Origin: Ilumatobacter coccineus YM16-304
GTDB taxonomy: Bacteria > Actinomycetota > Acidimicrobiia > Acidimicrobiales > Ilumatobacteraceae
Direction: 5' to 3'
Length of the DNA: 64,000 nucleotides
Assembly: GCF_000348785.1 (NCBI RefSeq)
Contig: NC_020520.1
Coordinates: forward strand, 1,240,001 to 1,304,000
The position numbers and the translations under genes were made by a program. Under the pieces are notes generated by a model. The model was given only the letters and a program-made list of their open reading frames with translations. It made no database searches and had not been told where the DNA came from. Within the stretch, counting starts at the first letter, position 1. Every line of letters begins with the position of its first letter. Positions 35,974-40,693 of this stretch are shown here, in pieces.

Positions 35974-37032
35974 ATGTCCGATGTGAGACAGGTTCGTGAC
36001 GCGACGAGCCGGATCGGACGCGTGCTGCGCCGACCGGGCTTCTGGCTGCGATTCAGCATCCTCGCCGCGGTCGGCTACTACCTCGTGATCCCGCTGCTCG
36101 CGAACGTCGAGACGGCGGCCGATCGGTTGCGCTCGCTCGACCTGCGACTCACCGTCGCCGGGTTCGCCCTGCAGGTCGTCGCGCTGCTGTGCTACTCGAT
36201 CATGACCAGGTCGGCGCTCGGCGCCGCCTCGCGCACACTGCGTCTGGAGCGCCTGTTCCGCATCCAACTCGTCACGCGGGCGCTGGCCTCGACGGTGCCC
36301 GGTGGTGCGGCGGCCGGGCCGGCGCTCGGCTACCGCCTCATGACCGCCGCGGGCGTTCGCGGCGCGCACGCGAGCGCGTCCCTCGCCTCGGGGTCGGTGG
36401 TGTCGGCGGTCGCACTCAACCTCATGCTGTGGGTCGCGCTCGTCATCTCGATCCCGCTCTACGGCTTCAACGCTCTCTACGCCATCGCCGCGGTCGTCGG
36501 CATCGTGGTGATGCTGCTGGTCGCCGCCACGCTGCTGGCGATCGTCGACCGCAGCCCGCTCATCGACCGGGCGGTGCACTTCGTCGCCGACCGGGTGCGC
36601 TTCGACGGCGACCGGGTGGTCGGCTCGCTGCGCGCGTTCGGCGAGCAGGTCGCGGCCCTCCTGGCCGACCGGCCACTCATGGCTCGGCTCTCGTTCTGGG
36701 CGGTCATGAACTGGGTGCTCGACGCGGCGTCGCTGTGGGTGTTCCTCCGGGCCTTCGGTGTCACCATGAACCCGATCGGACTGCTCGTCGCCTTCGGCGT
36801 CGCCAACGTGCTCGCCGCCGTGCCGATCAGTCCCGGGGGCATCGGCATCGTCGAGTGGGCCTACATCCCGATCCTCGTCACGTTCGGCGCCGGCTTCGAC
36901 CAGGCCACCCTGGCGGTCACCACCTACCGCATCGCTCAGCTGCTCTTCCCGATCGTCCTCGGCGCGCTGGCCTACGGCACGCTGTCGCTCGAGAGTTGGC
37001 GACGACGAACCGCCACCGACCTGGTGTCGTGA
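35974..37032 (+). CDS. Lysylphosphatidylglycerol synthase transmembrane-like protein (UPF0104/YbhN)
   Basis: A 352-residue polytopic membrane protein with about eight helices, matching the flippase-like domain of the LPG synthase TM region (MprF N-terminal half, AglD/YbhN). Diagnostic stretches are RALASTVPGGAAAGPALGYRLM near residue 108 and AVPISPGGIGIVEW near residue 285. There is no catalytic synthase domain, so it may be a lipid or glycolipid translocase-like protein. It lies 40 bp after the TetR gene and precedes the ilv leader, with no functional link apparent. Confidence 0.87.
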   Translation: MSDVRQVRDATSRIGRVLRRPGFWLRFSILAAVGYYLVIPLLANVETAADRLRSLDLRLTVAGFALQVVALLCYSIMTRSALGAASRTLRLERLFRIQLVTRALASTVPGGAAAGPALGYRLMTAAGVRGAHASASLASGSVVSAVALNLMLWVALVISIPLYGFNALYAIAAVVGIVVMLLVAATLLAIVDRSPLIDRAVHFVADRVRFDGDRVVGSLRAFGEQVAALLADRPLMARLSFWAVMNWVLDAASLWVFLRAFGVTMNPIGLLVAFGVANVLAAVPISPGGIGIVEWAYIPILVTFGAGFDQATLAVTTYRIAQLLFPIVLGALAYGTLSLESWRRRTATDLVS

Positions 37033-37073
37033 GCCCGACGAAACGGGTCGGGCTCAAGACTTGCGTTCGGCGG

Positions 37074-37079
37074 TACGAT
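37074..37079 (+). promoter_or_regulatory. -10 element of the ilv leader
   Basis: TACGAT lies 9 nt before the leader-peptide ATG at 37089, so the transcript would start within a few bases of that codon. The -35 region is weak. This is the same spacing seen for other leaderless genes in the window. Confidence 0.5.
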
Positions 37080-37088
37080 GATGGTTGT

Positions 37089-37139
37089 ATGAATCCCGTG
37101 AGCGCAGCCCCGAGCTTCCTCGTAGTACTTATCCCGTAG
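37089..37139 (+). CDS. ilvL: ilv operon leader peptide (attenuation)
   Basis: A 16-codon ORF encoding MNPVSAAPSFLVVLIP then TAG. Codons 11-15 are Leu-Val-Val-Leu-Ile, all three end products of the ilv pathway, in consecutive positions. It is followed by a GCACGC/GCGTGC hairpin and then a strong terminator, with ilvB downstream. This is the classical branched-chain amino acid attenuator layout: ribosome stalling at these codons should prevent terminator formation. No Shine-Dalgarno is present; it is probably leaderless. Too short for usual gene callers. Confidence 0.85.
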   Translation: MNPVSAAPSFLVVLIP

Positions 37140-37166
37140 CACGCACAGATCTCTCTGCGCGTGCCC

Positions 37167-37199
37167 TGGCCTCCCAAGTTGGGAGGCCATTTGCTTTTT
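37167..37199 (+). terminator. ilv attenuator terminator
   Basis: A perfect 9-bp stem TGGCCTCCC/GGGAGGCCA (37167-37175 and 37181-37189, loop AAGTT) is followed by ATTTGCTTTTT-like T-rich sequence to 37199. It lies 28 bp after the leader stop codon and 98 bp before ilvB. An alternative GCACGC/GCGTGC pause hairpin (about 37138-37164) precedes it. Confidence 0.88.
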
Positions 37200-37296
37200 C
37201 GGACTCGTTCCGGGCTGCAGCAACACGTTCCGCAATCACTTCTCGCCAACACTCTCCACACGCACAAGCACCAGAAAACCAGCAAAGGCAAGACCA

Positions 37297-39083
37297 ATGG
37301 CTGACCAAGCTGACCACGTCCAAAGCCAGACACCCGACCGGATCACCGGCGCGCAAGCACTGATCCGGGCGCTCGAGATGGAAGGGGTCGAGACGATGTT
37401 CGGCTACCCGGGCGGCTGCATCCTCCCGGCGTACGACCCGCTGCTCGACTCGTCGATTCGTCACGTCCTCGTTCGTCACGAGCAGGGCGCCGGCCACATG
37501 GCCGAGGGGTACGCGCACGTCAGTGGCAAGCCCGGCGTCGCCATGGTCACCTCCGGCCCGGCGGCGACCAACCTCGTCACCCCGCTGATGGACGCCTACA
37601 TGGACTCGGTGCCGATGGTCGCCATCACCGGCCAGGTCGCCACCAACGCCATCGGTTCCGATGCGTTCCAGGAGTGCGACACCGTGGGCATCACTCGGAG
37701 CTGCACCAAGCACAACGAACTCGTCATGACGAGCCAGGACCTGCCGATGGCCGTCCGCCAGGCGTTCCACATCGCCACGACGGGTCGCCCCGGCCCGACG
37801 CTGATCGACGTCCCGAAGGACGTGCTGGTCAACGAGATGGACTGGTACTGGCCAACCGACGAAGAAGTGCTGGCGAGCCTCCCGGGCTACCGCCCGAACG
37901 TCAAGGGCCACCCGCGCATGATCAAGGAAGCGGCGAAGCTGATCCTGTCGTCGGAGCGGCCGGTCATCTACGCCGGCGGCGGCATCCTCAAGGCGCGTGC
38001 GGCCGAAGCGCTCGCGCGACTCGTCGAGCTCACCGGGATCCACGTCGTCACGACGCTGATGGCCCGCGGTGTGTTCCCCGACGACCACGAACTCAACCTC
38101 GGCATGCCCGGCATGCACGGCAACGCGACGGCGGTCACCGCCATGCAGAAGTCCGACTTGCTCGTCGCGCTCGGCTCGCGTTTCGACGACCGCATCACCG
38201 GCAAGGTCGACGCCTTCGCCGAAGAGGCCAAGATCATCCACGTCGACATCGACCCCGCCGAGCAGGGCAAGGTGCGACGCCCCGACGTGCCGATCGTCGG
38301 CGACGCACGTCAGGTGATCGAGGAGATCATCATCGAGATCGAGAAGCTGCTCGAGACCGGCACGGTCCAGGCCGACACGAGCGCCTGGAAGTCGAAGGTG
38401 TCGGGCTGGCAAGAACAGTTCCCGATGATGTACGAGCCGTCGGAGCCGGGCCAGGCCCTCAAGCCGCAGTTCTGCATCGAGCAGCTCCGCGACCTCGCGC
38501 CCGAGCGCACCATCCTCACGTCGGGCGTCGGTCAGCACCAGATGTACGCCTCGCAGTACTGGAAGTTCAACGAGCCCTACACCTGGGTCAACTCGGGTGG
38601 CCTCGGCACGATGGGCTTCTCGATCCCCGCGGCGATCGGCGCGAAGGCCGCCTTCCCCGACGCCACCGTGTGGGCGATCGACGGCGACGGCTGCTTCCAG
38701 ATGACCGCCCAGGAGCTCGTCACCGCCACGCTCGAGAAGCTGCCGATCAAGGTGGCGCTGCTCAACAACCGGTACCTCGGCATGGTCCGTCAGTGGCAGG
38801 AGATGTTCTACGACGAGCGGTACTCGTCGGTGTTCCTCGACTCCGCCGAAGTGCCCGACTTCGTGATGATGGCCGAGTCGATGGGGTGCGTCGGCATCCG
38901 TGTCGAGTCGCCCGAAGAGGTCGGCCCGGCCATCGAGAAGGCGAACTCGATCAACGACCGACCCGTCGTCGTCGAGTTCCGCACCGAAGCCTCCGAAGGC
39001 GTGTTCCCGATGGTGCCCGCCGGCGCCAGCAACGACGACCTCATCCTCCACCCGAGCCAGCAAGACCGGAAAGACCAGCTGAA

Positions 39084-39087
<4 letters not shown>
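37297..39087 (+). CDS. ilvB: Acetolactate synthase large (catalytic) subunit
   Basis: A 596-residue ThDP-dependent acetohydroxyacid synthase, the first common step to Val, Leu and Ile: two pyruvates give acetolactate, or pyruvate plus 2-oxobutyrate gives acetohydroxybutyrate. The catalytic glutamate is E62 in RHEQGAGHMAEG. The central FAD-binding domain follows, and the ThDP/Mg motif GDGCFQMT lies near residue 466, with NNRYLGMVRQW after it. Length is normal for IlvB. The stop overlaps ilvN by 4 nt. Expression should be set by the leader attenuator at 37089-37199. Confidence 0.98.

Positions 39088-40693
<1,606 letters not shown>

Follow-up and report, generated by a model that had tools for sequence, protein, structure and literature searches.

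In Corynebacterium glutamicum, the transcript of the ilvBNC operon starts one nucleotide from the start codon of a leader peptide, and the antiterminator overlaps the terminator (PMC11857589). Leaderless ilv leaders have also been reported in C. diphtheriae and Streptomyces lividans (PMC5784534, PMC8079986), and cysteine-rich small open reading frames (ORFs) have been described on leaderless mRNAs (PMC4633059). Attenuator components were noted in 2005 to be missing in many actinobacterial ilvB cases, and changes to the candidate regulatory codons of S. coelicolor ilvB had no effect (PMC1262725), an observation that counts against the explanation favoured below. Our statements on these papers, here and in the final section, refer to the parts of their text that were accessible. 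Given the reports from C. glutamicum, C. diphtheriae and S. lividans, the coupling of leaderless initiation with ilv attenuation is not new, and the novelty that a first-pass annotation of the present locus had attached to it does not hold. Among the matches listed for the open-access literature (subscription papers lie outside it), none concerns leaders of Acidimicrobiia or attenuators of cimA or leuB; neither among these nor in Rfam did we find a leader set that spans an order, carries codons matched to the downstream gene and has no visible antiterminator.

The ilvBNC leader region

The window, by which we mean the whole stretch of 64,000 nucleotides of Ilumatobacter coccineus YM16-304 that was analysed, comes from a genome of 4.83 Mb in a single contig. 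Upstream of its ilvBNC operon a leader ORF, a hairpin (A) and a terminator hairpin (B) follow one another in this order (Table 1). By IlvB comparison the nearest named relative is Ilumatobacter nonamiensis (90%), and the IlvB proteins of two close relatives, G007 and G008, are 90 and 89% identical to that of the window. Between the stop of the upstream gene and the ilv promoter we also observed a perfect 9-bp inverted repeat (GAGCCCGAC/GTCGGGCTC, 37031-37055) without a T-run, which overlaps the -35 position of the promoter assigned in the first-pass annotation.

Table 1. Features of the ilvBNC leader region and operon (window coordinates)
Feature	Position	Strand	Basis or remark
-35 element TTGCGT (inferred)	37061..37066	+	Part of the top-scoring joint promoter within the 120 nt upstream of the leader stop
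First-pass -10, TACGAT (rival)	37074..37079	+	5.0 bits alone, joint score 0.7 bits
-10 element TTGTAT (inferred), preceded by TGG	37085..37090	+	Homologous to the TGGCANACT motif from unsupervised EM
First-pass 16-codon reading from ATG (alternative start)	37089..37139	+	Frame open; ATG overlaps the preferred -10
Leader ORF, GTG start, 13 codons MSAAPSFLVVLIP, stop TAG; predicted leaderless	37098..37139	+	GTG 7 nt after the -10
Hairpin A (GCACGC/GCGTGC plus CAGA/TCTG)	37139..37164	+	Pairing begins with the stop codon's G; fold and covariation
Intrinsic terminator B (TGGCCTCCC/GGGAGGCCA) with interrupted U-tract TTTGCTTTTT	37167..37199	+	Fold, terminator scan and covariation
ilvB, acetolactate synthase large subunit	37297..39087	+	NCBIfam NF005860 and TIGR00118 above cut-off
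ilvN, acetolactate synthase small subunit	39078..39653	+	NCBIfam NF008864 and TIGR00119 above cut-off; start codon approximate
ilvC, ketol-acid reductoisomerase	39656..40693	+	NCBIfam TIGR00465 above cut-off

The 16-residue frame with a Leu-Val-Val-Leu-Ile run that had been annotated here is present: the ORF at 37089-37139 translates to MNPVSAAPSFLVVLIP*, and the peptide ends in Leu-Val-Val-Leu-Ile-Pro-stop, encoded by CTC GTA GTA CTT ATC CCG TAG (37119-37139; the five control codons occupy 37119-37133 and the TAG 37137-37139). The locus thus has a short leader ORF with a run of codons for the products of the operon, and in further leaders, described below, the codons match the gene that follows.

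For comparison, we searched 99 genomes, the window's own included, and found IlvB in 87; from these, 85 ilvB loci were fetched, G002 and G054 being left out since their matches had no N-terminus. Our script chose a leader with a terminator in 75 loci, its rule placing the first control codon five to nine codons upstream of the stop. Its codon filter yielded no leader at seven loci that nonetheless match the covariance model R1 introduced below (G013, G065, G066, G067, G069, G078, G098). The folding set comprises 74 leaders, the window's included, after G080 was dropped from the 75 for a wrong choice of ORF, and the promoter counts refer to 73, the window's again included and G021 left out at a contig end.

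The valine codon GTA is strongly over-represented in the leaders. In the 28 genomes with full loci it makes up 46 of the 68 Val codons among the last nine leader codons, against 11 of 1367 in the ilvB genes of the same genomes, a baseline that supersedes an earlier one drawn from the window only (29/1780); across the 74 leaders the share is 121/205, and 69 of them have at least one GTA. A slow codon for the amino acid that is sensed would be expected under selection for sensitivity, while selection on the RNA itself may be another cause of the excess.

Conservation and covariation of the two hairpins

The RNA of 37089-37199 folds with z = -4.3, and none of 200 shuffles folds equally well. Hairpin B (37167-37189) follows A after two unpaired bases and is itself followed by TTTGCTTTTT, so that the hairpin and the terminator with T-run annotated ahead of ilvBNC are both borne out, and by sequence and structure an intrinsic terminator lies between the leader and the first gene. 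The terminator scan of 36900-37400, with one match, is by itself weak, because shuffles already give a mean of 0.5. The interrupted U-tract occupies 37190-37199, and its pattern recurs in 46 of the 74 leaders; termination at such a tract may need NusG or NusA. A known Rfam element was rejected, since Rfam 15 gives no match at gathering score in the whole window and only two chance-level matches (E 8.7 and 9.8) in 36900-37400.

A covariance model, R1, built from a seed of 18 leaders that includes the window's own, finds full-length copies at 82 of the 85 ilvB loci and at 64 of the 67 outside the training set; the three loci with no full-length match are G044, where the contig is cut, G093 and G084. 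In the resulting 82-row alignment, both hairpins covary: 96.3% of cells pair, 17 of the 19 pairs are somewhere changed on both sides, and 190 cells are so changed, against 43.9 in shuffles (none of 500 as high) and 14 to 36 in slid controls. The covariation score of 0.366 is reached by none of 500 shuffles (slid controls, 0.013 to 0.060). As this alignment was fitted to the structure, it favours that structure. In a MAFFT alignment of the 18 seed sequences, which was not fitted to any model, 99.4% of cells pair and nine pairs differ on both sides, though shuffles match it in further pair types (154 of 500 reach its number). Two other alignments were abandoned. With MAFFT on 75 leaders hairpin A was misaligned and RNAalifold returned only B, and the 18-sequence seed superseded it; one that admitted matches up to E 0.1 took in 18 partial matches on B, antisense to the leader, and was discarded.

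The placement of the hairpins is conserved as well. In 70 of the 74 leaders, pairing in A begins with the stop codon's G, and 0-6 unpaired bases separate A from B. Within B, the upper stem CCTCCC/GGGAGG (37170-37187 in the window, and in relatives) is nearly invariant while the lower stem covaries freely, so that the upper stem could serve some additional function.

Ribosome position and the search for an antiterminator

We folded the 74 leaders with a ribosome footprint of 26 nt held unpaired, the footprint size being that of PMC13236596. The median number of A pairs is about ten with no ribosome or with an early stall on the control codons, and about none with the ribosome at the stop. Between these states the median is 9.8 while the ribosome is four codons short of the stop, 6.0 and 2.2 at the last control codons, 0.2 one codon before the stop and 0.1 at the stop itself. 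Fewer than five A pairs remain in 2/74 leaders with no ribosome and in 5/74 with a stalled one, and at the stop none of the 74 keeps five or more. The five stalled exceptions, among them the close relative G007 (0.6 A pairs), count against our preferred explanation. In these computations, then, hairpin A is a structure opened or closed by ribosome position, and its response is shown within the limits of the folding model. Hairpin B, for its part, folds in every modelled ribosome state in all 74 ilvB leaders, with a lowest probability of 0.80. The textbook switch is therefore absent from the modelled states, and the direction of control is an assumption on our part.

It could be argued that a textbook attenuator is present and that its exclusive antiterminator was overlooked, for instance one in which the A loop and the GGGAGG arm of B form a pseudoknot. 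For the Corynebacterium ilvB-II motif, part of the P1 loop is proposed to pair with the terminator's right shoulder (PMC10272879), and the A loops of our leaders are C-rich and G-poor (26/470 bases). Weak cross pairing between A and B (more than one expected pair) occurs in 4, 4 and 0 of 74 leaders with no ribosome, a stalled ribosome and a ribosome at the stop, reaching at most 3.2 pairs, in G024. Scored as duplexes, however, such pairings show no meaningful excess. With the 3' arm of B the A loop pairs no better than shuffled loops do (z = 0.6), nor better than when partners are drawn from other genomes (z = -0.7), and its pairing with the 5' arm, at z = -2.0 against shuffles, is energetically nil; complementarity of the A 3' arm to the B 5' arm lies below that of shuffles by 11.9 sd (z = +11.9) and below that of arms from other genomes (z = +3.1); and neither the control codons nor the 5' part of the leader has excess pairing with B. 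Moreover, the 5' arm of B is paired above 0.5 before its 3' arm has been made in 10, 8 and 21 of 74 leaders (none, stall, stop), and the rise from 8 under stall to 21 at the stop is the reverse of what an antiterminator needs. We therefore consider an overlooked antiterminator unlikely. Pairing of the A arms with the 5' part of the leader was also tried (z = -3.2 and -3.8 against shuffles) and rejected as not specific, because z is only -0.5 and 0.2 against partners from other genomes.

Covariation of alternative stems had been suggested as a check on the locus: the two stems that do covary can coexist, and a conserved alternative stem was not found. Thus in the ilvB leaders, with pseudoknots scored as duplexes, a mutually exclusive antiterminator was not seen in the modelled folds. 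The first-pass identification of a branched-chain amino acid attenuator is supported by the comparison, in which the leader and both hairpins are conserved and the hairpins covary.

Promoter and start codon of the leader

When the regions preceding the leaders were searched for motifs without supervision, with the 67 from outside the genus as training set, nTGGCAnACT was returned. In 68 of 73 ilvB leaders this -10 is followed 6-10 nt later by the next in-frame start codon, whereas the other two frames give 2 and 0 of 73; 65 of the 73 have a TTG 17 or 18 nt ahead of the -10 hexamer, and 2 have one at spacings of 12 or 13. In this count the window was entered as TACGAT-9-ATG, the geometry of the first-pass annotation, in which a -10 TACGAT would serve a leaderless 16-codon peptide from ATG 37089. 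TACGAT does lie 9 nt before that ATG and, scored alone, exceeds TTGTAT (5.0 against 2.7 bits). Under the full promoter model, trained on relatives outside the genus, TTGCGT-18-TTGTAT-7-GTG nevertheless scores 14.4 bits jointly and TACGAT-9-ATG 0.7 bits, because the latter has no -35 (GGGCTC stands at the matching position). The evidence from the genus is divided. G004 and G006 have TTGC-18-TACGNT-9-ATG at the homologous place (TACGCT/TACGAT), in favour of the ATG reading; G007 and G008, against it, have the GTG geometry, with a -10 of the TGGTTGNNT form that also occurs in G027. In G008 the layout TGGTTGAAT-7-GTG is that of the window, and the GTG start is forced by an in-frame TGA upstream of it. 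Since some members have TACGNT with ATG and others GTG, a promoter shift within the genus is suggested. For the window we regard the start at ATG 37089 as quite unlikely and assign the leader start, with moderate confidence, to GTG 37098; the promoter and start codon pair of the first-pass annotation is probably wrong.

With either start codon the leader is predicted to be leaderless, and this part of the earlier proposal is backed by the comparative promoter spacing. A longer 5' UTR from another promoter would be the alternative: a generic sigma-70 consensus scan of 36900-37400 finds no promoter, neither TTGTAT nor TACGAT, and other promoters further upstream are possible. The fixed distance of 6-10 nt between -10 and start codon, which recurs in 39 of 47 further leaders, speaks against it, as does the lack, by eye, of a Shine-Dalgarno sequence in the bases before the start in the window, and we judge this alternative improbable.

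Leaders of the same design at other genes

R1 also matches leaders at genes other than ilvB. Across 296 genomes of the phylum it matched 45, of which 20 belong to the same class or closer; at ten more distant loci that were checked, the downstream gene is ilvB in seven and cimA in three, some several hundred bases away. A second model, R2, finds 81 places in 37 of 40 genomes of the order, nearly each from a different family, some of these places being in its training set. Both models include control-codon columns and so favour leaders rich in branched-chain codons, a bias that cannot create the split between Leu and Ile among genes reported below.

The window's own genome has such a leader ahead of leuA, outside the window (G000:C1:1408810-1408909, minus strand; L167, L232). 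By eye it has TACCCT, 7 nt and GTG, and its peptide, MIDLAPTLLLLM, has four Leu codons. Its E-value is 0.5 with R1 and 1.5e-5 with R2, the latter inflated because the leader is in the training set.

We fetched the 47 R2 places beyond the leaders already read and named their genes from protein sequence alone: 21 precede leuB, 17 leuA (two divergent LeuA types, 10 and 7), five ilvB, two cimA and one ilvE, and one lies at a contig end. Among the last seven codons, leuA leaders have a mean of 4.0 and 3.3 Leu for the two types and at most 0.1 Ile; the two cimA leaders have 3.5 Ile and 0 Leu; and leuB leaders have 1.9 Ile, 1.5 Val and 0.1 Leu. Four more cimA leaders with Ile runs (L180, L198, L199, L200) had their genes assigned by tblastn. 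Matching codons were thus found in 17 leuA (Leu), 21 leuB (Ile/Val) and six cimA (Ile) leaders. The Ile and Val codons of the leuB leaders (e.g. L235, L243, L246, L265), with hardly any Leu, suggest that the dehydrogenase also serves the citramalate route to isoleucine.

Two-hairpin leaders of mostly leaderless geometry were seen in other genomes of the order (L180, L198-L204, L206, L233-L279), with cimA, leuA of both types, leuB and one ilvE behind them. For the further leaders a free motif search gave a -35 of TTGACG, and the -10 was scored by the ilvB matrix with its first position relaxed; the frame controls for the start-codon spacing given above are 0 and 1. The script delimited a terminator in 52 of 55 and none in three. 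B folds in 50, 51 and 50 of the 52 (no ribosome, stall, stop), falling below 0.5 in 2, 1 and 2 (L274, L277, L258).

That B is simply a constitutive terminator or small-RNA source, with a leader peptide of little regulatory role, would agree with its stability in all computed states, but the leader codons track the amino acid of the downstream gene (leuA, cimA, leuB, ilvB) and the rare GUA is retained, which makes this reading improbable. Such an order-wide set of attenuators with two compatible hairpins and no antiterminator visible in the models seems unexpected.

A model for the ilvBNC leader

We propose, with a probability of roughly 0.7, that the leader controls ilvBNC through ribosome-mediated attenuation of transcription in response to charged branched-chain tRNAs, as sequence comparison and folding together suggest. 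RNA polymerase would start at or beside GTG 37098, so that the ribosome would load on a bare 5' end and read the 13-codon leader. A shortage of Leu or Val tRNA, most of all of that for the rare GUA codons, would make the ribosome stall at least four codons before the stop and leave A folded; a ribosome held at CTT or ATC, the last control codons, would disrupt part of A. With an ample supply the ribosome would reach the stop codon and its leading edge would open A, a response that is computed, and with A open terminator B would end transcription. By analogy, polymerase would read through when the ribosome is stalled. Competition for bases would not link A to B, as the two share none; candidate ways for folded A to weaken B are a pause or a steric effect at the exit channel, and the withdrawal of single-stranded RNA on which NusA or another termination factor depends.

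More tentatively, at somewhat below even odds, the leaders at ilvB, leuA, leuB, cimA and ilvE may make up an actinobacterial attenuator class of their own, with a terminator gated by leaderless ribosomes and no mutually exclusive antiterminator: the ribosome would open, or leave closed, a hairpin that abuts the stop codon and lies 0-6 nt upstream of an orthogonal terminator hairpin. Having no antiterminator, such a class would have to exert control via the polymerase, a termination factor or kinetics, not base-pair competition. If A does control B with no shared bases, attenuation would be possible without the textbook switch between alternative folds. The more than 100 leaders collected supply natural variation, with codons that give a clue to what the gene behind them makes (e.g. 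Ile and Val at leuB), and offer a setting for the kinetics of leaderless initiation.

Comparison with known systems

The actinobacterial ilvB leaders predicted in 2005 likewise place a branched-chain leader ORF and a terminator ahead of ilvB; in the accessible text, however, their leader codons overlap the terminator, and Acidimicrobiia, cimA and leuB are absent (PMC1262725). S. lividans ilvL, leuL and trpL and C. diphtheriae ilvB share with our set leaderless leaders at branched-chain amino acid genes, identified by RNA-seq, and S. lividans ilvL has hairpins and a U-rich stretch. Unlike the present leaders, they come from another class, the available parts of the two papers give no shared two-hairpin model, and S. 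lividans leuL1 is without a typical terminator (PMC8079986, PMC5784534). The M. tuberculosis ilvB1 attenuator resembles ours in its LVVI control codons, GUA included, its terminator and its ilvB1NC operon, and differs in the mutually exclusive terminator and anti-terminator that the accessible text proposes (PMC13236596). Closest are C. glutamicum ilvBNC and the Corynebacterium ilvB-II motif, with a 15-codon branched-chain leader, a near-leaderless start, a terminator with a U-tract and an ilvBNC operon (PMC11857589, PMC10272879). There, as far as the accessible text goes, the proposed antiterminator shares bases with the terminator and is backed by mutations, whereas no exclusive alternative was seen here; and the uORF there covers most of P1, whereas in the Ilumatobacter leader hairpin A begins at the stop codon.
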